Virus record (IMG/VR): IMGVR_UViG_3300020182_000048
Location: 1-52,608 of that record
DNA from: a virus
DNA: 52,608 bases
Strand: one strand, 5' to 3'
Below, piece after piece: positions 2,389 to 52,608 of this stretch (positions are counted from its first letter, which is position 1; each line of letters starts with the position of its first letter). The notes under the pieces were generated by a model, which was not told the origin of the DNA, did no database searches, and saw nothing but the letters and a program-made list of their open reading frames with translations. The position numbers were made by a program, and so were the translations under genes.

Positions 2389-2538
2389 TTAGTATTTATA
2401 TTTAATATCACTTACTTCTCGTACTATTATTTCGTGTGAATGATCGCAATACATTATTGCCCATTGTCTAGCTTCGTCTAGTGTTTTTGCTAGTATGAAT
2501 GTAACTTCATCTGCATTGTAGATCATGAATTTACTCAT
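2389..2538 (-). CDS. Small hypothetical protein, 49 aa
   Basis: ATG 2538 to TAA 2389. The protein begins MSKFMIYNADEVTFILAKTL and contains DEARQWAIMYCDHSHEIIV. Its start overlaps the stop of the 46-aa gene (ATGAGTAA arrangement) and its stop is one base from the KTSC start, so the three are a tight translational cassette. No known family. The pattern of a beta strand, a helix with ARxWA, then a strand resembles small phage proteins of about 50 aa, but the resemblance is too general to name. Confidence 0.65.
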   Translation of the reverse strand: MSKFMIYNADEVTFILAKTLDEARQWAIMYCDHSHEIIVREVSDIKYKY

Positions 2539-2671
2539 CGAGTTTTATTTTTACATAGGTTAATCCGTCATATCCGGATGCACTCCATTGAAATAATTGG
2601 TTTGGTGTTAAGTTGCATGCTAGCGATTCTAATTCTTCGATAGGCATAAGGTCAATTTGCTTTGCAGTCAT
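2531..2671 (-). CDS. Small hypothetical protein, 46 aa
   Basis: ATG 2671, TAA 2531-2533, overlapping the next gene by 8 nt. The protein starts MTAKQIDLMPIEELESLAC and ends WSASGYDGLTYVKIKLDE. It lies directly downstream of the structured non-coding stretch 2691-2963, so that RNA forms part of its leader if transcription comes from the promoter at 3703-3734. No family is recognised. Confidence 0.6.
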   Translation of the reverse strand: MTAKQIDLMPIEELESLACNLTPNQLFQWSASGYDGLTYVKIKLDE

Positions 2672-2692
2672 AGTTATTTAGTTTAATATTAG

Positions 2693-2747
2693 TAACCGCA
2701 AGGAGATTCGAACTCCTTCACCCGTCAGTGGCGTTCCTTTCGCGGTT
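2693..2747 (-). ncRNA. tRNA-like minihelix (acceptor stem plus T arm)
   Basis: On the minus strand, AACCGCG (2747-2741) can pair with TGCGGTT (2700-2694) to give a 7-bp acceptor-like stem with one G-T wobble. Directly adjacent to the 3' strand is a perfect T arm: AGGAG, loop TTCGAAT, CTCCT (2717-2701). A discriminator-like A (2693) follows, then CT rather than CCA. Only 23 nt lie between the 5' acceptor strand and the T arm, too few for both a D arm and an anticodon arm. So it is not a normal tRNA. It may be a tRNA mimic, a degenerate tRNA, or a tRNA-derived attachment site. Confidence 0.5.
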
Positions 2748-2808
2748 ATCAGCTATTACGTGATCATGAATCGTATCTTTCGCCTAGTAGTTATCTTCCA
2801 TCTAACAA

Positions 2809-2861
2809 CGGACTTGCACCGTGCCGGGAGTTAATTAAATTCCCGCTCGTGATACTACTTA
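2809..2861 (-). ncRNA. Tandem structured RNA element, copy A
   Basis: 53 nt. Read on the minus strand: AGTAGTAT, CACGAGC, a hairpin GGGA...TCCC with an A/T loop, then GGCACGGTGCAAGTCCG. The flanks are identical to copy B (2911-2963) except one base, while the stem sequence differs and still pairs. Downstream ATAACTACT (near 2790) can close the whole element against AGTAGTAT. No ORF of note lies here. Confidence 0.55.
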
Positions 2862-2910
2862 GTAGTTATTTTCCTGTATATGCTAGGTATACCTAGATTT
2901 ACCTCAGGAT

Positions 2911-2963
2911 CGGACTTGCACCGTGCCGACGGCTAATTACGCCGCCGCTCGTAATACTACTTA
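2911..2963 (-). ncRNA. Tandem structured RNA element, copy B
   Basis: 53 nt. Minus strand: AGTAGTAT, TACGAGC, hairpin GGCGGC / GCCGTC with loop GTAATTA (one G-T wobble that pairs only in minus-strand RNA), then GGCACGGTGCAAGTCCG. Downstream ATAACTACT near 2865 can pair with AGTAGT to close a larger domain. Between the two copies, ACTAC/GTAGT also makes a local hairpin. The copy begins at the stop codon of the 71-aa membrane protein gene. Confidence 0.55.
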
Positions 2964-3176
2964 TTTTAGTTTTTTATACCACATTTTAAACAGTCTGCCA
3001 ATAGTAGGCCACATAAAGTAAAATGGTAGTACAACGTTTAGTAATAACTTTTTCTTAGTGGTTATACACATATCATCCCAATCGTCGTGGTATATCGCAT
3101 TTATATCAACCATTATAGCGGATATTAAAATAGTCCAGTTAACAATATATAGTGCTTTTATAAAAAATATTATCAT
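2961..3176 (-). CDS. Small membrane protein, 71 aa
   Basis: Two hydrophobic segments, about residues 2-22 (IIFFIKALYIVNWTILISAIM) and 44-62 (LLLNVVLPFYFMWPTIGRLF), separated by an acidic loop with HDDWDDMC and flanked by a basic tail (KMWYKKLK). This predicts a two-pass inner-membrane protein with both termini on the same side. Function is unknown; early phage membrane proteins of this size often affect host physiology or superinfection, which here is only a guess. It is the second gene of the unit driven from 3703-3734. Confidence 0.65.
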   Translation of the reverse strand: MIIFFIKALYIVNWTILISAIMVDINAIYHDDWDDMCITTKKKLLLNVVLPFYFMWPTIGRLFKMWYKKLK

Positions 3177-3194: not shown

Positions 3195-3677
3195 TTAGTC
3201 AAACTGATCCGTTGAAGTGTATAGCATTTCAACTTTAGGGTTAGCGCAATGTGCTTTTTCATTTACATAGTAATTACGATAAGCAGCTACGGAATCGCCT
3301 GAAACTTTATACTCGTCTGGCATACATTGAGGCATTTCAGTCAAGCCGGTATTAAAGATCGGACCAGGTGTTTGAGACAGTATGTTCTCGCACTTGATTA
3401 TAGTCAGGTGTTTTTTACCGTAGCGCTTAGTATATTCATTGCCAAGAGCTAACATGTGGAAGTATAGCCATGCGTAGTTTTGTACAGATTGTCTCGTCCA
3501 CACAGCACTCGGATGGTTTTTGTGTGTTAGTTTGTAGGGGACATCTATCTCACTATCTAGCATGTGATGAGCTGAACACAGTAGCTGTGCTGACTCAAGT
3601 ATCATCTTGACAACGTGTTTATTGTATTGTTTTTGTGCAGCGATAACTGGATCGCTATGTAAATAAAATATATTCAT
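3195..3677 (-). CDS. Conserved phage protein (MNIFYLHxDP / KHVVKMI family)
   Basis: 160 residues, starting 26 nt from promoter box 3703-3734. The N terminus MNIFYLHSDPVIAAQ, the motif KHVVKMILESAQLLCSAH, and the blocks THKNHPSAVWTRQS, MPDEYKV and YRNYY are a conserved pattern I recall in many marine and T4-like phages, annotated there as hypothetical or loosely as pyrimidine dimer DNA glycosylase. The conserved His, Lys, Glu and Arg residues suggest an enzyme acting on nucleic acid. I regard the glycosylase name as unproven. Confidence 0.75.
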   Translation of the reverse strand: MNIFYLHSDPVIAAQKQYNKHVVKMILESAQLLCSAHHMLDSEIDVPYKLTHKNHPSAVWTRQSVQNYAWLYFHMLALGNEYTKRYGKKHLTIIKCENILSQTPGPIFNTGLTEMPQCMPDEYKVSGDSVAAYRNYYVNEKAHCANPKVEMLYTSTDQFD

Positions 3678-15631: not shown

Positions 15632-17170
15632 ATGAATCAAATAGTAAAAGAGTTTAGCTTTGGAGACGAAGGTAAAGACAAAGTATTTAAAGGTATTGAG
15701 GTACTAACAAAAGCGGTTGCTTCCACGTTAGGTGGTGGCGGGGAGTGTGTTATTTTTGAAGACGCGCACGGAATACCGGTTATAACAAAAGACGGTGTAA
15801 CTGTCGCAGAGCTAAGTGTTCTGTTAGATCCTGTAGAAAATATGGGAGCCTCGTTAGTAAAGCAAGCAGCAAGACGAACTGTACAAGAAGCCGGTGACGG
15901 AACTACAACAGCCACCGTATTGGCCTATGCGATACTAAAAGAGTTTAGTAAGTCAAAAATGAAGTTTACTAGCCGTGAAAAGCGCGACGCAATCAATACG
16001 ATCGTTGAAAAAGCTTTAAAGTATCTTGACAAGCGCAGTAAAGCGGTTGAGGGAGATATGATTGACGAAGTAGCTACTATATCTACAAACAATGACCCTG
16101 TATTAGGTAAGCTAATTGCAGATGCATATAGAGCGGTGGATTTAACGGGCGTTGTAATGATGGAGACATCACAAGATGGCAATACAAGTATAGAGGTTGT
16201 AGAAGGTGTGCAATACGAGAAAGGATTTACAAATAATCATTTCGTTAATAACACAGCAGCTAATACAGCGGAACTTGTTAACCCTAAGATATTATTAGTT
16301 GATTCTGCGGTAGATACTATTAGGCAGATACAAACTATACTAGAGCACGTTATAAAGAACAACATACCATTGCTTATTGTAGGGGATGTTGACGCAAAAG
16401 TAGCTGCGGCTTTAGCAATGAACAAAAACAAAGGAGCTATAAAGATTAATATAGTACCAGCACCAACTCACGGTGTAAATAGAAAAGAAATATTTGATGA
16501 CTTAGCCTTATTAACGGGAGCTACAGTTATAAGTGAGAATCTAGGGGACGATTTAGATCTAATCGATCTTTCACACTTAGGTACTTGCGTAAAAGCTATA
16601 TCAACGTTCAGAGACACGGTTTTTCAAATAGATGAAGAACAGTCTGAAGAAGTTAAGGCTATAATTAAAAATATCAAAGAGCAATTGCTTACAGAGCTAA
16701 ATTCTGGTAAAGTAATCAAACTTGAAAAAAGATTAGCAATGCTATCGGCTAAACTAGCTATTGTAAAAGTAGGTGGTGACTCAGACGTAGAGTTAAACGA
16801 AAAGAAAGATAGAGTGGAGGACGCAATATGCGCGACTAAAGCGGCTATCAAAGAAGGTGTGGTTGCTGGCGGTGGAGTTGCTTTAGTAAACGCAAGCGAA
16901 AGTATAAAAGCTAAAACGCCAGCCGAAGAGGTTGTGTTAAAGGCGTTATATCTTCCATGCAAAACAATAATGAAAAACGCGGGACTCGAGTACAAGAACA
17001 TCGACAAAAAAGATTGGGGTGTTGACGTAGAGACCGGCAAAACAGTTAATATGTTTAAAGCAGGGATTATAGATCCTGTATTAGTTACAAAATCAGCTTT
17101 AAAGAACGCTGCATCAGTTGCTTCGACAATATTGTCAACTAACTGCGTTATGTCTAACTTAAGAGAATAA
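15632..17170 (+). CDS. groEL: Phage chaperonin GroEL
   Basis: 512 residues over the whole GroEL length (E. coli 548). The nucleotide-binding and hydrolytic residues are kept: ITKDGVTV with D54 (E. coli D52), GDGTTTATV with D89 (E. coli D87), and RVEDA with D397 (E. coli D398), followed by EGVVAGGGVAL. So it should be an active ATPase. The C-terminal Gly-Gly-Met tail is absent (ends VMSNLRE), and the apical domain is diverged. It has its own late promoter and forms a two-gene operon with GroES, so the phage supplies a complete folding machine, probably for capsid or tail proteins during late infection. Confidence 0.95.
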   Translation: MNQIVKEFSFGDEGKDKVFKGIEVLTKAVASTLGGGGECVIFEDAHGIPVITKDGVTVAELSVLLDPVENMGASLVKQAARRTVQEAGDGTTTATVLAYAILKEFSKSKMKFTSREKRDAINTIVEKALKYLDKRSKAVEGDMIDEVATISTNNDPVLGKLIADAYRAVDLTGVVMMETSQDGNTSIEVVEGVQYEKGFTNNHFVNNTAANTAELVNPKILLVDSAVDTIRQIQTILEHVIKNNIPLLIVGDVDAKVAAALAMNKNKGAIKINIVPAPTHGVNRKEIFDDLALLTGATVISENLGDDLDLIDLSHLGTCVKAISTFRDTVFQIDEEQSEEVKAIIKNIKEQLLTELNSGKVIKLEKRLAMLSAKLAIVKVGGDSDVELNEKKDRVEDAICATKAAIKEGVVAGGGVALVNASESIKAKTPAEEVVLKALYLPCKTIMKNAGLEYKNIDKKDWGVDVETGKTVNMFKAGIIDPVLVTKSALKNAASVASTILSTNCVMSNLRE

Positions 17171-43868: not shown

Positions 43869-46800
43869 ATGCCAAGATTTACATACCTAATAAACGACAC
43901 TAAAGAAGTATTTGAGGATTACGATAGCTTAATTGCGCGCTTAAAGAAAGCGGATGAAATGGGTTGGTCAGTTAAAGAATTAACGGAAGGCGAAGACGAA
44001 GAAGTTGAAGACAGCACTGATGTTAGCCGTGCTCCCGCAGAGGAATCCATGATTGAAAAAATTGATTCTCCAAATTTTGGGGAAGACCTTGCGACGAGTG
44101 CAAGCGAAGGGTCGGATGTGTTTGCACAACCAGAATTGGAATCCAGCTCGGAAGATACTTCTTTGGATTTACCCGCTGTAACCATAGATGATATAGAATC
44201 TGAGGCGGAAAAAAATGAGGTAATAAATTTGGAAGCTTTACAAGGGCTGCTAGGGGGAGACGAAGATAGAGTCAAGGAAGCTATGCAAGCTATAGCTAGA
44301 ACTCCTAACATGAGCTTAAATATTACTGACTATAACCAGAAGGAAAAAACGAGCAGTAGAAATGCAACTCTTTCTTATACTAACCCTGATACAGGAGACA
44401 TAGATGAGACTTTTGATCTAAGAATACAGGGAAGAGATTTAAGTAAGACAGAAATGTCAGAAAAAGCAAAAGAGCTCAGAAAGTTCTTAAACAGATATGC
44501 TGACTCAAATGCTTTAACAGCAATGGGTGATCAAGCGGAGACTATGCTAGGTAGTGCTAACTTAAACCCCACAGAGCAAGAAATAACGGAGGCGTTACCC
44601 CCTAAGGAATCGATGTTTGAGCCACAAACAAAACAGCGCTTCACTCAAAAAAACAAGTATTCATCAACGGGAGAAATAGAGGAATTTGATGTGTACCCCT
44701 ATGACGCCGAGCTAGAGGCAAAGCGGAACCAGCTAATAAGTGAGGGCTCCGACTTGGGTGTTGATGAGTTAATCGCAAAAAGCAAGGATATGGTCTATGC
44801 AGACCTAAAAGAAGCTAAACGCCAGGAGCTACTTACGCAAAAAACGGAACAGTATCTTTCGGATAACATTGATAAAAGAAGCGTTGCTACCTTAGGCGGT
44901 GCTGTAGCGAAAACAAAAAAGTTTAAAGCATGGGCAGCAAAAGAGGCTGTAGTTATAGCTAACACAAATAGCTCAGTTGCAAAAACAAAAAACCTAGCAT
45001 TAGCTTCACGATATGCCGAAGGAACCGTACAGGCTGCGGAATTAAAAATTAACGGACAAACCGTAATGCTCGGGGATTTAAGTGACGGTTCTCCAGTTTT
45101 AACCTACGAAACAGGCGTTCAAATAACACAGCAACAAAAAGATATCTTAGATAGCGAGCAGGTTGAATTAAATGCTTCTCTTGAAGCGTTTGCTCCGCTA
45201 ATGCAAGACCTTAATGAAACAGGTAAGAAGCTAGGAGACATGGACGCGCAGCTAAAGGCAGCTGGATTGAACTTTAGTATACTAGACAAATCGGCGAGCA
45301 CCTTGGTTACTGGATTAGGTAGCATAGGAGTGAGTTTAGGCATGTTTGGTATCAAGACAATAAACCTAATGAATTACGGGTCAGAAGTTTTAACCGGGCA
45401 AGTAGGTGCTGAAAATAGATTTCTTAGAACAGAGGAGGCCCTGGACGAATGGGGATCACAATATTCTGAATTTAAAGAAGATATCAGGGGCCAATACGTA
45501 AGAGATCTTAGTGTTGGTGAAGGATTTTCTAGCGGCAAAAACTTTGCTAAATTTGTAGCGCAAGAAATAGCTACGCAAGCGCCCGTACTCATTGCCATGG
45601 CCGCATCAGGAGGCACGTTAGCACCTTACATTGTAGGAGCCTGGACAGCTGGTGAAAAAATGATGGATATAGCATACGAGAATTCCTTAATGACGTCTAG
45701 CGAAAGAACAGGTGCTTTTGAGGCTTATGCAAAAGCAATCGGTGTTGGCTTAGCCAATGGAGTGTTTACCGGTTTGACAACAAACCCTATACTTCAGAAT
45801 GGTATGAAGATGTTTAAGGGTAACACGAAAAAAGATTTCTTATTAAATTTAAACGATTACTGGAAGTTAAACTGGAAAAGGAATCTTGTTTATGATAATG
45901 CCTTAGAACTTTCAGGTGAATTAGCCACTAACGTTGTGGAGAACGCTATAGACGGTAGACCTATATTTGAAAATGCGGATCATGTTGCAGTAAGCAGCCT
46001 AGGATTCTCATTTGCTTTTTCCGGCTTGCCATTCTTGCAAGGAGCAGGTATACGTGCATTATCTCCTCGTAAAACTACAATAGACTTAGATAATCGCCAG
46101 AAGAAAATATTTGATCTAGAGGCAGCTTATGCGGCTGTAGACAAGAGAACAGTTGCTGGCAAGGAAATAAGAACACAGCTAGAGGCCTTGAAGGTTGTGC
46201 AGGGTAGAGAAATAGCTAAAGCAGAGCAAAAAGCTCAAAACGGCATATCTATATTAGGGGCACGAGGGGTTCAAGCGACCACAAAAACAATAAACGAAGC
46301 TAAAGAAAAAGCGTCAAACATTGTTAATGATCCTACGCTTACCTACAAGCAAAAAGAGGCTGCACTAGAAAAAATACAGAATGACTTTATAGTTGCGAAA
46401 AGCACTCAAGAAGCCTACCTATCTAGCGCGTTTAGAGACGAATTTATTTTGCTAGAAGCTACAGACCCAGATGGTTATCAAGGCTACATGGATCAAGCTA
46501 TGAATGAGCTAAATGCTTATGTTGTAACCGATCAGGTTAAGCAAAAAGCTTCAGACTTATACAACGCTAAACTAATAAGAGACAAATTTGCCGTTAACGG
46601 GAAGAAGGTTAACTCTAGAGCCATGTTGTTTGAAACTACAAAAGAAGCTATAGCGGAAGTAGAGAAGATGGCAAAGGCTGGTGAAATCACACCCGAGGAA
46701 AAAGCAGATATAATTGCAAACCTAAAGAAAGGAGCCGGAGGTGTTAACATCAAGATAGGTAAGACCGACAAAAACGGTGAGTTCACCTACTCTTTAGATG

Positions 46801-49800
46801 CAGACGGGGATAGTGTTACAACCCCTATAGCTATTATAGAAAGCCAGCTTGCGGAACAAAAAATAGGTGTTATGGAACACGAGCTGAGCCACGGGGTAAT
46901 GGATAAGATTTTTGCAAACGCTCCAGAAAAGCTTGCGGCTATGGCTGATCAGATTGAACTTTGGATGCAAAAAAATCAGGCAGGGCTTAATTTAAAAATA
47001 CAAAATCAGCTAAGTCCATACATGGTCGATTACACTAAAAGGATTGACAAGGCTGCTACGAAAGAAGAAAAATTAAGTCTTGAAAAAGAATTGCAGAGTA
47101 TTATTGCAAACGAATATATGGCTAACTTTTTTGAGCTAGTTGGTGGAGGAAAAGGAATGGATCCTCTAGCCCCTGGCAACCAGGCGTTCATGGGACTTAG
47201 TGGCTACATGCTACAAGATTTAGCTGGAAAAGATTATAATTTTGATTTCAGAGGCCCTGATGATTTTGTTGCGTTTGCCGCTTCAATAGCCAAAGGAATT
47301 AAAGAAGGAACAGTAAACATAAACAGGTTAGGCGATTTAAAAAAGCAGGTGGATAAAATAGCTGCTGATAAGACAGACGGCAAGGCAGCAACTCCCGCTA
47401 CTAGGCTCTCTAAGCCGCTACAAGACAAATTTGACGAGGCAGAAGAGGCTTTAAACGATGCCGAGGACATGTTTAATCTAGACCCGGACAATCCAACACT
47501 TCAAAAAGCTGTTGAGGACGCACAGAAAACCTATGATTTAGCGGAAGCCGCTTTAGATGAGGGGGTAGACGCTGTTCCAGAAGCAACCGCCGCAACAAAC
47601 GAACCTGTTAAAAAAGAAAAAATAGTTAGGCCTAAGGCTGACAAAAGCAAAAGAAAATACTCTTTAGACACGGAAGTAAAGAAAGAAATAGAGCCTAAAA
47701 TAGCCGAAGTACAAGCTATTAATAAGGTAATAAAGGAAGAAGAAAAAAGACTTAATGCTGAGGCTAAAAAAGCTATAGAAGATAAGCCTGAAACCGGGGA
47801 TGTAACTAGAACGTCTAAGGAAGAAGAATTAGTAGCACTTAAGGAAAACCCTATAACTATTAACGCAAATAACAGCCCTGATATAATCAAACAAGCTGCT
47901 AGACGAGATAAACTACAGAACGAAATAGTTAAGGCTTTAGACGTGCCCTTAAGCAAGGCTGCGCGATTGTTTACCAATGTTTTCTACAACAAAATATCCG
48001 AAAACGCTAAGCAAGCAACAAGCAGGGAAGATTACTTGGCGTCTGCAAAAGCCAACCTAACGGTTATGACTATCAATGAGTTTAAACCTGAAACTATTAA
48101 TAGGAAAGGCGAAAACGTTATTAATGACATCGAGGATATTATATTCCAAAGAGGAGGACTTAGAGCTGTAAAATTTGCAGAAGATCTTGGGGTTGTAGGT
48201 AAAGACCAGGGGACTTCAAGAGGAGCAGAGGCATTAGTAAAAATAGCGTCGAATGATACTGAATTCGAGTTTGAAACTAAAGATTCTAAAAAACCAGAAA
48301 AGAAATTAGTTAGCGGATTTAAAGGCGAAGTTAGAAGGCCTAGCGCTTTGCTAGCGAACGAAGCACTCAAAGCACAGGCTAAAGCTAAAATTTTAGAATT
48401 TTGGGAAAAGAACAGGGGTAACAAAAAAGTAGAAAACTTTAAAAACTTACCGGTTGTTATTGATTCCATACTAGCAGAAATATACGGTATTAGCGAAGGA
48501 ACTTTAACTGCGAGGTCCGGTAACTTTAACAAGGAAACATACAAAAGTGCAATTACAGCTTTTACTGCAAAGCAAGCTGTATTCAGAACGGAAGTAAATG
48601 GAGAAATGACAGAGGTAAGAGTGCCTTATGATCAAAGAGACTCTAAGCTAGCGGAATTAGAAGCAAAAGCTAAAGAGGATTCTAACTTTACTTTTGAAGA
48701 ATACTCACCAGAGTCTAGGGCAGAAGGTATATTAAGATTTTTACCAGAACTTAGCGTTCCTGAATACAAATACTTTAGCGGCAAAAGAGGTAGAAGCGCG
48801 GGTATGTCAACAGGAATGGGTAGAAATTTTACAGCCCTTGCTTACTTAGTTACAGGCAGAAGAACTCAAGCACAAGGAAATTTAGAAGGCGAAATTCAAA
48901 AAATATCTCGGGACGAATTGCTAGAAGCGATAGGAGCTATTGATGACGGCAATGGAAATGCGGTGCCAGATGTAGCAAAAGCTAAAGAAGCAGGTAAGGC
49001 AATAAACAAAATGCCGGGAGCGCAGACCTTACTGAGTTTGATAAAGCTTGAGGGTCGTATGATAGCGAACGAAATGAGTAGGGAATTTGGTAACCTAGAC
49101 CCTATGACATTGCTGGACATTGAAATGGGTAAAAACCCAACTATGTACTCCAAAAGCATAACGAATTTTGGTGGAGTAGAGGCTATGCTTAACATGGCTA
49201 ATGTAAACTACGATTCAGCTACTAATGCTCAATTATCCGTAGAAGTGCTAAATCATTTAAAAGGCAAATTTGCAAAATATCCTATAAGTGCCGCTGATGT
49301 TTTTAAAGCAACCGATACTTACCTTAGAAAAGAATTTGATGTCCAAGTTGGCAGAATTTTTGCAGATGAAGTTTTTAACGATTTTATAGGAAAAACAGAT
49401 CTTACTCCAGATCAAACCAAAAAGCTTATTAATAGCTCATACGGAAAAGCCCTTGGAACGGCATTTGACTATATACTCCGAGATAGAGGATACAACAAGC
49501 TTACCGCTGCACTTAAAGCTCTTGGCGATAAACTTAGTACTGCTGACATAGTAGAATTTATTGAGTTTTACGGCAGAGGAATCCGAGACGCGAAGGTTGA
49601 TGGAATAATAACAAACAAAGATCTATACAATAGCTTAGCCGAAAAGCTAGGTATAACACCCAAGGAACTAAAAACAAAGTACGGTGTAGAGTTGGCAAAG
49701 GAGACTAGATACCGTGTAAAAAAGAAAGGAGAGAAAGCTACTGAACAAGAGGTTTTTGTAATAAAAAAACCAGGTAGTGATAATAAATTAAAAGGCATCT

Positions 49801-52608
49801 TCAAAACAACCACAATTGAAGACATAAAAAAGGTAAGAACGCAAAGCAACGAAAGAATAGATGGCATGGCGGCTACCATGGCTAGCGATACTAAGAAAAA
49901 TAGGGATTTTGTTAAAAAAATAGTAACGGATTCTAAACAAGCATATCTAGCCGCAGGTAAAAACAAGGTTAAGCAACAAGAGATTTTTTTAGAAGCAAAA
50001 GCAAAACTTCTTCTTTTATCTGGCGGACAACTTACTCCTATGCGCAAAATGTATAACCTTAAAAACGTTTATAAAACCAAAGCAGCATCAATGCTTGAGC
50101 ATGAGATCTCTTTAGGTGTAATGAGGCAAGCTTTATACGATTACATTTCCGCTAAAAAGAATTTTGATATAGATGCTTATTTTAGTGAATTGTATGTGAA
50201 CATAATTCCTGTAGAGGCTAACGCTGTTTTAGATCGCGATGGAGATAGCACACGCTATGATAAGGAACCCGACGGCAAAGGCAAAGGTGGCTTTAAAAAC
50301 AAAGTTAAAGGGCTAAAGTTTTACAACGCTCAAGAAAAACGACAAAGAACCGCAGACAACAATTTTTATTCTTTGCCTTTGAATTTAAGGCAAAAAGGTC
50401 TTACAGTGGAACAATCTTTAAAAGCGGTTGAAAACTTTGATAAAGCAATAAATTTAGGAAATAGTCTCGACAGACCAAGAAGAGGTATTAGCGTTTGGGA
50501 TTTTGACGATACATTGGCAACAACTAAAAGCAACGTGTTATACACAATGCCTGACGGAACTAAAGGTAAATTAGATGCATCGAGATTTGCGAAAGAAGGG
50601 GATACATTTTTAGCTAACGGCGCTGAATTTGATTTTAGTGAATTTAGCAAAGTGATGAGTGGAGCTAAAGGCCCGTTCTTTAATAAGGCTGTAGATAGAA
50701 ACAAAAAGTTTGGCAACAAAGACGTGTACATATTAACCGCTCGCCCGGCTAATAGTGCCAATGCTATACATGAATTCCTCAAGGGTATTGGTCTTGACAT
50801 ACCACTTGCTAACATTACCGGGCTTGCAAGCTCAGATCCACAAGCTAAGGCTAATTGGGTTGTAGGTAAATTTGCAGAAGGCTACAACGACTTTTACTTT
50901 GCAGACGATCACGTAGGTAATGTGGCTGCGGTAGGCGATGCACTTTCTAGATTAGACGACGTGCAAAGTAAGGTTGAACTTGCTAAAGCAACTAGATATT
51001 CTAAAAAAATACGTGCAGAATACAGCACAATACTCGATAAGCTACGGGGAGGTGATGTAATAGAAGGCAATAAAGTGTTTTCGGCAGAGCAGCAAATAGA
51101 CGACGTATTCGACTGGGTTAAGAGTTTAGATATACCAGAAAAAAATCAAGCTAAATACAAAAAGGCTGCTTTAAACTTTGTAGCAAAAAGCCCTACTAAT
51201 TTTCCTGTTGACGCTGAAATTGTAGGTGAAGCTATAAGAATAGCCGAGCTAAAAAAGCTAAACGTAATGGACTTTAGCAATCCTCGCGACATTATAGATA
51301 AATTTGCAGGAGAAGTTAAGGCTAAGCGATTAGACCCTAATAAAGAAAAGCAATTTTTTAATAAAAAATCTTTACCTGAGGGGGTAGAAACATTTCAAAT
51401 AATGCCTACTCGTAGAGGGCAGCAGGCTGTTAGAAGAATATTGGATACTCATTGGGGTAAAAAAACTAACCCTTGGTGCGTAACGGCGCAAAAAAACGCA
51501 TACACCCCAGCAGAACAAAAAGAACGAAAAGAAAACCCACCTGGTATTCCTATTGGAACTACAGTTAAGGTTACGTACGAAGCTATAGTGAATGCTGGGG
51601 TTGTGGAAGACTATATAACATTTGATAACCTAGGCAACCGAGTGGAGGACGTTATGTTTGATTTTATTGGCAATTTAAAGCCAGGATGGGTTGCGGGAAA
51701 AGCAGAATACGACAGCACAGATCCTAACGATCAATGGGTAATAGACAGGGAAAATGAACAAGACTTTAACGAAGAATTAGCTACAGCCAAAGCCGAAGGA
51801 TACACTATAAGAGAGGGAAGCTATGATACTAGCCAGGATAATTTTTATGTTCAAATGGAGCGCAACAACGATCCCGAAGTAAACAGGGTTCAAAAATACG
51901 TTGCTTACTACAAAACTAAAGACCCAAACATGACTCAAAAGGAGTTTGATAACGGACCCGCTAAAGGGGGGACGGTTACAAACCCGGAAATAGAACCTAC
52001 TGGCCCAATTGAATTAACTCCTCAGTCTTTTCGAATGTGGGAAAACTACGGCAAACCTATCAATCCAAATCAGTTGTTTGACATGGGTGTAATTAGCGCT
52101 ACTGAATTTGCTAATGAAAATACCGTAGATGTAGTTGATGACGGTGGGTTTGAAATAGCATTTAAAGACGGTAAATTACTGGGCCTTAAAAACCTTGGAG
52201 GTAGCAAACAAAAGTGGTTTGACCGCATGGATCATGGTACAAAAGATTTAGCTTTAAAAGTGCCTAGAGACCCTAAGGGTAAAATCAATGGATCATCTAC
52301 TATGATGAATACCGATTCAGGTAGAGTCTTTAGTAGAAATTATACGACTAAGTACTCTAAAAAACTTGAAGGAGATATTAACTTTTTAACAAATGAGTTG
52401 TCTACAAAGGGCGAGGCTTTACCTGGGCAAACACTAAACGCTGATCAACAGCCAAAAGCAGTTAAAGATGTTATTAATACTCTCGATGTTAAAAGTAAAA
52501 CACAACAAAGCCGTATAAGATACAGTAAAGCTTTAGACGAGGAATTTAACAAGATAATAGAGCAAGAATCCGGTATAGAAGCATTTAAAGAGTACAAGTC
52601 GGTTAAAG
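43869..52608 (+). CDS. Giant virion/ejection-type protein with HExxH and HAD domains (partial)
   Basis: Open frame to the window edge: 2913 codons and more. Order: acidic N terminus; hydrophobic stretches near residues 478-500, 567-594 and 707-728; a metallopeptidase-like VMEHELSHGVMDK with H1004, E1005, H1008; charged coiled-coil linkers; a HAD phosphatase core with WDFDDT (D2211, D2213), YILTARP (T2290) and FYFADDHVGN (D2346, D2347); then a C-terminal region with NPWCVTAQKN and IAFKDGKLLG, KWFDRMDHG. Segments of the type (R/K)YSKxL recur (about 1179, 1264, 2377, 2829, 2885). Place and size suggest an ejected internal protein like T7 gp16 or N4 virion RNA polymerase, though no polymerase motif is seen. 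Confidence 0.8.
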   Translation, partial: MPRFTYLINDTKEVFEDYDSLIARLKKADEMGWSVKELTEGEDEEVEDSTDVSRAPAEESMIEKIDSPNFGEDLATSASEGSDVFAQPELESSSEDTSLDLPAVTIDDIESEAEKNEVINLEALQGLLGGDEDRVKEAMQAIARTPNMSLNITDYNQKEKTSSRNATLSYTNPDTGDIDETFDLRIQGRDLSKTEMSEKAKELRKFLNRYADSNALTAMGDQAETMLGSANLNPTEQEITEALPPKESMFEPQTKQRFTQKNKYSSTGEIEEFDVYPYDAELEAKRNQLISEGSDLGVDELIAKSKDMVYADLKEAKRQELLTQKTEQYLSDNIDKRSVATLGGAVAKTKKFKAWAAKEAVVIANTNSSVAKTKNLALASRYAEGTVQAAELKINGQTVMLGDLSDGSPVLTYETGVQITQQQKDILDSEQVELNASLEAFAPLMQDLNETGKKLGDMDAQLKAAGLNFSILDKSASTLVTGLGSIGVSLGMFGIKTINLMNYGSEVLTGQVGAENRFLRTEEALDEWGSQYSEFKEDIRGQYVRDLSVGEGFSSGKNFAKFVAQEIATQAPVLIAMAASGGTLAPYIVGAWTAGEKMMDIAYENSLMTSSERTGAFEAYAKAIGVGLANGVFTGLTTNPILQNGMKMFKGNTKKDFLLNLNDYWKLNWKRNLVYDNALELSGELATNVVENAIDGRPIFENADHVAVSSLGFSFAFSGLPFLQGAGIRALSPRKTTIDLDNRQKKIFDLEAAYAAVDKRTVAGKEIRTQLEALKVVQGREIAKAEQKAQNGISILGARGVQATTKTINEAKEKASNIVNDPTLTYKQKEAALEKIQNDFIVAKSTQEAYLSSAFRDEFILLEATDPDGYQGYMDQAMNELNAYVVTDQVKQKASDLYNAKLIRDKFAVNGKKVNSRAMLFETTKEAIAEVEKMAKAGEITPEEKADIIANLKKGAGGVNIKIGKTDKNGEFTYSLDADGDSVTTPIAIIESQLAEQKIGVMEHELSHGVMDKIFANAPEKLAAMADQIELWMQKNQAGLNLKIQNQLSPYMVDYTKRIDKAATKEEKLSLEKELQSIIANEYMANFFELVGGGKGMDPLAPGNQAFMGLSGYMLQDLAGKDYNFDFRGPDDFVAFAASIAKGIKEGTVNINRLGDLKKQVDKIAADKTDGKAATPATRLSKPLQDKFDEAEEALNDAEDMFNLDPDNPTLQKAVEDAQKTYDLAEAALDEGVDAVPEATAATNEPVKKEKIVRPKADKSKRKYSLDTEVKKEIEPKIAEVQAINKVIKEEEKRLNAEAKKAIEDKPETGDVTRTSKEEELVALKENPITINANNSPDIIKQAARRDKLQNEIVKALDVPLSKAARLFTNVFYNKISENAKQATSREDYLASAKANLTVMTINEFKPETINRKGENVINDIEDIIFQRGGLRAVKFAEDLGVVGKDQGTSRGAEALVKIASNDTEFEFETKDSKKPEKKLVSGFKGEVRRPSALLANEALKAQAKAKILEFWEKNRGNKKVENFKNLPVVIDSILAEIYGISEGTLTARSGNFNKETYKSAITAFTAKQAVFRTEVNGEMTEVRVPYDQRDSKLAELEAKAKEDSNFTFEEYSPESRAEGILRFLPELSVPEYKYFSGKRGRSAGMSTGMGRNFTALAYLVTGRRTQAQGNLEGEIQKISRDELLEAIGAIDDGNGNAVPDVAKAKEAGKAINKMPGAQTLLSLIKLEGRMIANEMSREFGNLDPMTLLDIEMGKNPTMYSKSITNFGGVEAMLNMANVNYDSATNAQLSVEVLNHLKGKFAKYPISAADVFKATDTYLRKEFDVQVGRIFADEVFNDFIGKTDLTPDQTKKLINSSYGKALGTAFDYILRDRGYNKLTAALKALGDKLSTADIVEFIEFYGRGIRDAKVDGIITNKDLYNSLAEKLGITPKELKTKYGVELAKETRYRVKKKGEKATEQEVFVIKKPGSDNKLKGIFKTTTIEDIKKVRTQSNERIDGMAATMASDTKKNRDFVKKIVTDSKQAYLAAGKNKVKQQEIFLEAKAKLLLLSGGQLTPMRKMYNLKNVYKTKAASMLEHEISLGVMRQALYDYISAKKNFDIDAYFSELYVNIIPVEANAVLDRDGDSTRYDKEPDGKGKGGFKNKVKGLKFYNAQEKRQRTADNNFYSLPLNLRQKGLTVEQSLKAVENFDKAINLGNSLDRPRRGISVWDFDDTLATTKSNVLYTMPDGTKGKLDASRFAKEGDTFLANGAEFDFSEFSKVMSGAKGPFFNKAVDRNKKFGNKDVYILTARPANSANAIHEFLKGIGLDIPLANITGLASSDPQAKANWVVGKFAEGYNDFYFADDHVGNVAAVGDALSRLDDVQSKVELAKATRYSKKIRAEYSTILDKLRGGDVIEGNKVFSAEQQIDDVFDWVKSLDIPEKNQAKYKKAALNFVAKSPTNFPVDAEIVGEAIRIAELKKLNVMDFSNPRDIIDKFAGEVKAKRLDPNKEKQFFNKKSLPEGVETFQIMPTRRGQQAVRRILDTHWGKKTNPWCVTAQKNAYTPAEQKERKENPPGIPIGTTVKVTYEAIVNAGVVEDYITFDNLGNRVEDVMFDFIGNLKPGWVAGKAEYDSTDPNDQWVIDRENEQDFNEELATAKAEGYTIREGSYDTSQDNFYVQMERNNDPEVNRVQKYVAYYKTKDPNMTQKEFDNGPAKGGTVTNPEIEPTGPIELTPQSFRMWENYGKPINPNQLFDMGVISATEFANENTVDVVDDGGFEIAFKDGKLLGLKNLGGSKQKWFDRMDHGTKDLALKVPRDPKGKINGSSTMMNTDSGRVFSRNYTTKYSKKLEGDINFLTNELSTKGEALPGQTLNADQQPKAVKDVINTLDVKSKTQQSRIRYSKALDEEFNKIIEQESGIEAFKEYKSVK

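Follow-up and report, generated by a model that had tools for sequence, protein, structure and literature searches.

Here, we describe element A, a compact structured RNA that is present in two complete copies in a 52.6-kb phage contig (IMG/VR record IMGVR_UViG_3300020182_000048, positions 1 to 52,608; this whole stretch of DNA is hereafter called the window). Its fold consists of a closing stem P1 with one bulged A, the hairpins P3 and P4, and a variable hairpin P5. Element A was found in 19 further viral contigs, giving 20 including the window, and RNA arrays carry it as an exchangeable unit that runs in the same direction as the early genes. In our preferred reading, to which we give a probability of roughly one half, element A is a compact (74–150 nucleotides, nt) structured noncoding RNA module that is cut from the early transcript by tRNA-type processing and acts in trans.

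The early genes of the window lie on the minus strand, at approximately 0 to 10 kb, and both copies of element A are located there between two open reading frames (ORFs). Read along the minus strand, the array consists of copy 1 (2961–2861), a single base that separates the P1 stems of the two copies, copy 2 (2859–2786), a 37-nt spacer (2784–2748), and a tRNA-like unit (2747–2690). In copy 1, P1 is formed by 2954–2961 with 2861–2869, P3 by 2927–2947, the T-loop hairpin P4 by 2911–2923, and P5 by 2872–2909. In copy 2, P1 is formed by 2852–2859 with 2786–2794, P3 by 2825–2845, and P4 by 2809–2821, whereas P5 is poorly formed. The array begins with copy 1 at the stop codon of an upstream 71-aa ORF (2961–3176, minus strand) and ends just before the start, at 2671, of a downstream 46-aa ORF (MTAKQIDLMPIEELESLA..., 2531–2671, minus strand). 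A coding function for the array was ruled out by stops in all three frames of its strand. A scan for promoters and terminators gave consensus matches only and is not informative for promoters of the Bacteroidota type.

The original prediction, made from the letters of the window alone, had pointed to two 53-nt copies at 2809–2861 and 2911–2963, and a repeat search returned exactly these, with 81% identity and a spacing of 102. It had also claimed that the central hairpin differs between the copies but stays paired. Indeed, the copies differ at 10 of 52 aligned bases, and almost all of these lie inside the hairpin, which is paired in both and reads CGGCGGC...GCCGTCG in copy 1 (2927–2947) and CGGGA...TCCCG in copy 2 (2825–2845). 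The proposed far-side partner, ATAACTACT, is present for both copies (2861–2869 and 2786–2794) and closes each of them, leaving one A bulged. At 101 and 74 nt, including P5 and the 3′ side of P1, the repeat unit is longer than was first seen. The stretch 2691–2750, which fell within the predicted range and had been left uninterpreted, belongs to the separate tRNA-like unit.

Folding of single sequences was weak (z −2.5 for copy 1 and −1.0 for copy 2), and the whole array region folded modestly better than dinucleotide shuffles (z −2.1). Since this alone is not convincing, the case for element A rests on its relatives. From 16 distinct sequences known, the 15 with a full core were aligned (alignment A2). 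The P5 interior, 11 to 78 nt long, was trimmed to six bases per side according to conserved flanks and not to pairing, and the P5 counts should be read with this trim in mind. Changes on both sides were observed at 16 of the 24 pairs, and 90.8% of the cells pair. Cells with both-side changes numbered 57, compared with 24.5 ± 4.3 in column shuffles, and the covariation score was 0.427, compared with 0.208 ± 0.020 in shuffles and at most 0.131 in slid registers. None of the 500 column shuffles and none of the slid registers reached the observed pair changes; the sequences are kin, so the shuffle counts are not probabilities, while the slid controls retain the kinship. RNAalifold, unprompted, predicted the same four helices.

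The changes are distributed unevenly over the fold. The outer part of P1 varies but still pairs (columns 5–79 as A-U, C-G or U-A; 6–78 as G-C or A-U; 7–77 as C-G or U-A), and its inner part is invariant, GUAUC with GAUAAC and one bulged A, running straight into the junction J1/3, ACG; a P2 helix is not in the covariation structure. Each of the six P3 pairs has both-side changes in at least one sequence, and the P3 loop reads GUAAUUAA in most sequences. Four of the five P5 pairs covary. P4, CGG-UGSAAGU-CCG with the loop GGUGSAAGUCC, is invariant except for one loop base; it carries GGUGCAAGUCC, and the earlier remark on a T-loop was apt.

A covariance model, R1, was built from the family. It recovered copy 1 with 57.4 bits (E 7e-13) and copy 2 with 75.5 bits (E 1e-17), both by construction, and it also matched a diverged relative outside its training set, L126, at E 3.6e-6. 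Covariation across homologues is present, and the pair changes with their controls, the RNAalifold result and the untrained match lend strong support to the claim of a functional, structured RNA whose stem changes compensate each other.

The members were collected in several steps: an exact pattern led to L003, searches with neighbouring genes led to L088, L099 and L126, and pattern scans from the growing set led to the rest. When 100 other records were searched with R1, 19 had a match and 81 had none, indicating a patchy presence. Exact-pattern scans overlook diverged members. Looser pattern scans of the viral contigs brought up L176 and L177, which were rejected as GC-rich chance matches, and a scan with a relaxed P4 yielded zero new members. 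Element A was not found in the GTDB species genomes with the exact core pattern, nor in INPHARED with BLAST; one array query against INPHARED gave ordinary tRNA-Met genes only, among the matches listed. In Rfam 15, no family matched element A at gathering level, and a permissive Rfam search of the L238 element returned nothing on it. No description of the family was found in Rfam 15 or in the open-licence literature. Element A appears to be a previously uncatalogued RNA family, and it adds a covariation-supported family that is missing from Rfam 15.

The carriers of element A are probably marine phages related to Flavobacteriia podoviruses. The terminase of the window phage matches those of Flavobacterium, Cellulophaga, Tenacibaculum and Maribacter phages, mostly at less than 60% identity, and that of an uncultured podovirus at 63%. 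The phage also encodes a portal protein and the chaperonin GroEL (15632–17170, plus strand; PHROG 5725, E 1e-127).

The early intergenic zone of these phages carries arrays of RNA units, of which element A is one free-standing type. All copies are co-directional with the nearest upstream ORF and, in nearly all loci, with the nearest downstream ORF; the two opposite-strand downstream ORFs are mechanical calls. At nine loci (L220, L228, L232, L235, L237, L238, L240, L242 and L244), the 3′ end of element A lies 3–5 nt before a tRNA-like or tmRNA-like (transfer-messenger RNA-like) acceptor stem, and at five (L228, L231, L235, L238 and L244), its start lies a few nt after another such unit. The unit is optional at a given junction. 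In L224, two tRNA-like neighbours are separated by AAAA alone, whereas in L228 the same two unit types have element A and short linkers between them. In L126, element A lies inside another conserved noncoding stretch, and the empty site is intact in L090–L093. The gene borders of the arrays also differ between the window and G001. In G001, the homologue of the 46-aa ORF directly follows a 160-aa ORF, and the array is two genes further upstream; it precedes the MGRLIEIS gene there and comes two genes later in the window. This marine phage group, which is widespread, assembles its early-region RNA arrays from interchangeable modules on tRNA-like and tmRNA-like frames.

Many array units in the relatives combine a 7-bp acceptor and a T arm containing TTCRA with a D-loop-like GG and with A73 followed by CTA(A), and lack a usable anticodon arm. 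Acceptor and T arm are kept in the tRNA-like units, and the anticodon regions are hypervariable. RNase P and RNase Z recognise the parts that are kept. In the preferred reading, element A would be transcribed with the early operon, inside the intergenic array, and the neighbouring tRNA-like or tmRNA-like units would punctuate the transcript. Cleavage by RNase P where the downstream unit begins, together with 3′ maturation of the upstream unit, would then release element A as a small RNA of its own. Once free, it would fold as a four-helix junction, with the P4 T-loop packed on the invariant core of inner P1 and J1/3, and during take-over it may act in trans on some component of the host. We propose excision by tRNA-type processing because element A packs tightly on units that keep the parts recognised by these enzymes, and action in trans because a cutting signal would require far less conservation than the core shows and because the element can be missing from a given border. 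The covariation in P1, P3 and P5 and the invariance of P4, J1/3 and inner P1 support this reading.

Several observations in the window weigh against the preferred reading. The subclade of the window, L087, L088 and L099 has a spacer of 35–40 nt between element A and the tRNA-like unit, the P5 of copy 2 is unpaired in the consensus register, and the window tRNA-like unit is recognised by neither ARAGORN nor Rfam, which makes its processing uncertain.

One neighbouring unit type has a precedent for action in trans. tmRNAs without a coding sequence, which consist of the tRNA-like domain (TLD) only, stand next to element A in L232 (1112–1192, minus strand; 66.1 bits) and L238 (2465–2545, plus strand; 57.1 bits). 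These two tested genes, of about 80 nt, lack the mRNA domain and score above the RF00023 gathering score of 47. They have G3-U70, A73 and the tmRNA D-loop, and 11 nt without a reading frame replace the 304-position insert. Such TLD-only tmRNAs are found directly downstream of element A in several relatives. A molecule of this kind, like that of mycobacteriophage DS6A, strongly inhibits tmRNA (PMC4131195), perhaps by titration of SmpB (PMC4131195; PMC11915505). The comparison concerns the neighbour of element A and not element A itself, and the window tRNA-like unit has neither G3-U70 nor an RF00023 match. A second precedent is offered by GOLLD and ROOL, orphan structured RNAs encoded by phages near tRNA islands (PMC12286853), which are still unexplained and beside which element A now stands. 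GOLLD is about ten times larger, and element A has no sequence match or Rfam model match to GOLLD or ROOL. The arrays offer a small, concrete system for learning how phages deploy structured RNA in, or against, the translation machinery of the host.

Element A could also be a cis-acting element of the early operon. It and the tRNA-like units would then serve as intergenic punctuation that directs cleavage of the flanking early mRNAs or shields their ends, and the folded RNA would have no further role once cut. Its intergenic, co-directional position, the extent of the window array, from a stop codon to shortly before the next gene, and the hypervariable anticodon regions beside retained acceptor and T arms are all consistent with this explanation. 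However, an invariant four-helix core with a nearly invariant 11-nt loop exceeds what punctuation needs, and the same junction exists without element A in a relative (L224 compared with L228), so operon processing is independent of it. We regard a purely cis-acting role as doubtful.

More tentatively still, element A may be a small RNA of a new class, catalytic or self-associating. It would be either a self-cleaving ribozyme with a P4 loop of the twister-sister type in another core or an RNA that dimerises through its P3 loop, and it would serve as an interchangeable part of phage arrays that interfere with host translation or ribosome rescue. The P3 loop, of 9 nt and purine-flanked, contains the self-complementary UAAUUA, which is kept in 14 of the 15 A2 sequences and in L126.

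Self-cleavage is the main novel alternative. In that case, element A would be a twister-sister-like ribozyme whose P4 T-loop docks in inner P1 and which cuts at the bulged U-A step of GAUAAC, in the strand entering P1. The original prediction had likened the loop to loop 4 of the twister ribozyme; beyond such an L4-type loop nothing specific to twister was recognised, and the nine central P4 letters match instead stem-loop 4 of twister-sister, whose residues G29–C37 are described as G-U-G-C-A-A-G-U-C (PMC5660989). This loop, GUGCAAGUC with a U-A closing pair, is present at the level of letters: GUGSAAGUC occurs in 15 of 15 A2 sequences, with C in the window copies, and only this C varies (to G) across the family. 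The order P3-P4-P5 round the junction is that of the four-way junction form of twister-sister, the bulged A, itself invariant, sits in an invariant helix and on its 3′ strand, which is also the location of the twister-sister cleavage site, and element A closely precedes RNA units whose release it could bring about. Nevertheless, an Rfam search of 2600–3050 gave no ribozyme match at E ≤ 10, including any twister type and twister-sister, and neither the twister core nor the cleavage-loop consensus is present. Twister-sister has a P1-L1-P2 region in which conserved L1 letters surround the C-A cleavage step; in its place, element A has an invariant Watson-Crick helix, GUAUC/GAUAAC with one bulged A, followed by J1/3. 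It is not filed under twister-sister because the remaining core is absent. T-loops of such sequence are a common building block, as a spurious alignment with the FMN riboswitch (see below) illustrates, and cleavage at the proposed step would open P1. On balance, a ribozyme of this kind is unlikely.

The patchy presence, the varied insertion places and the two tandem copies in the window might suggest a selfish mobile RNA or DNA insertion without benefit to the phage, and ATTAA flanks the L126 copy on both sides. This is quite improbable: the fold is maintained by compensatory changes across diverged phages, element A is found within RNA arrays only, no adjacent nuclease or recombinase was seen, and the ATTAA repeat is short, A+T-rich and may be due to chance. 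Least probable of all is a riboswitch or other ligand-sensing leader, which the compact junction with conserved loops and a weak similarity to the flavin mononucleotide (FMN) riboswitch RF00050 (T-loop letters GGUG.AA.UCC; 18.4 bits, E 0.066) would suggest. That match, the only one from a permissive Rfam search of the window stretch, is spurious: it falls short of the gathering score of 66.2, depends on the T-loop letters and bridges the two copies, which are separate. No expression platform was recognised, and the downstream neighbours are other RNA modules and not one gene class.

The 37-nt spacer of the window (2748–2784, minus strand; GGCGAAAGATACGATTCATGATCACGTAATAGCTGAT) is nearly identical in L003, L088 and L099 and has no stable fold alone (z +1.15). 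The tRNA-like unit that follows it (2690–2747, minus strand), detected by an acceptor/T-arm scan, lacks a D arm and has homologues in L087, L088, L099 and L237. It has a 7-bp acceptor (AACCGCG/TGCGGTT), a D-loop-like AAAGGAA, a short hairpin (CGCC-ACTGACG-GGTG), a 5-bp T arm (AGGAG-TTCGAAT-CTCCT), A73 and then CTA. Acceptor and T arm are those of a tRNA, but the D arm is absent and the loop of the hairpin, ACTGACG, carries C where U33 would be. With ARAGORN and Rfam negative, both a true tRNA and a tmRNA were rejected; the unit also has C3-G70 instead of the G3-U70 of tmRNA. CTA or CTAA in place of an encoded CCA stands 3′ of nearly all tRNA and tRNA-like genes of the group (G059, G048, G050 and the window array).

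Units similar to the tmRNAs of L232 and L238, of the DS6A kind, were seen in L223, L235, L237, L240, L242 and L244. Full tmRNAs occur in G046 and G047, and full phage tmRNA genes were located at 3208–3525 of L095 and 3619–3935 of L096 (both plus strand, 85–90 bits). The tag predicted for the latter two has 33 residues, far longer than the usual 10 or so.

Units that start with GGGCGUG and have G3-U70 hold varied, folded-looking inserts at the place of the anticodon arm (L220, L221, L224, L228, L231, L234 and L236). A second recurring module, GUAGUAAUGCGAGUG-AUAAUGCA-stem-AAAAA-CACUC...UUAUUAC, occupies this place in aberrant tRNA-like genes (L220, L221, L224 and L225) and is also found within the P5 of element A as GAGUA-AUAAUGCA...AAAAA-UACUC (L003, L126 and L228). 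Further folded-looking segments, e.g., CCCAGCGAATAAATAAC...GTCTGGG and AACAGTAGGTACC...CCTACTGTT, are shuffled between arrays (L221, L228, L229, L231, L234 and L236), with no Rfam match in the loci scanned. A conserved noncoding stretch of about 350–450 nt ends in a tRNA-like unit in L126 (2650–3115), L091 (2300–2670) and L093 (2830–3140); it had no Rfam match in L091 and L093 and is possibly a larger ornate RNA.

In related phages, ARAGORN called a tRNA with the stop anticodon TTA, and tRNAs whose anticodon has four bases (ataa), at L098:3730–3799, L095:2178–2250 and L096:2801–2873. Recoding of stop codons by a suppressor tRNA was rejected as a role for the tRNA-like unit: the 44–52 kb stretch of the window, which looks gene-poor, is one 2913-codon ORF in the standard code, and no recoding is needed. 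This open frame (43869–52607, plus strand) has at least 2913 codons, runs off the contig and contains the metalloprotease-like motif EHELSHGV.
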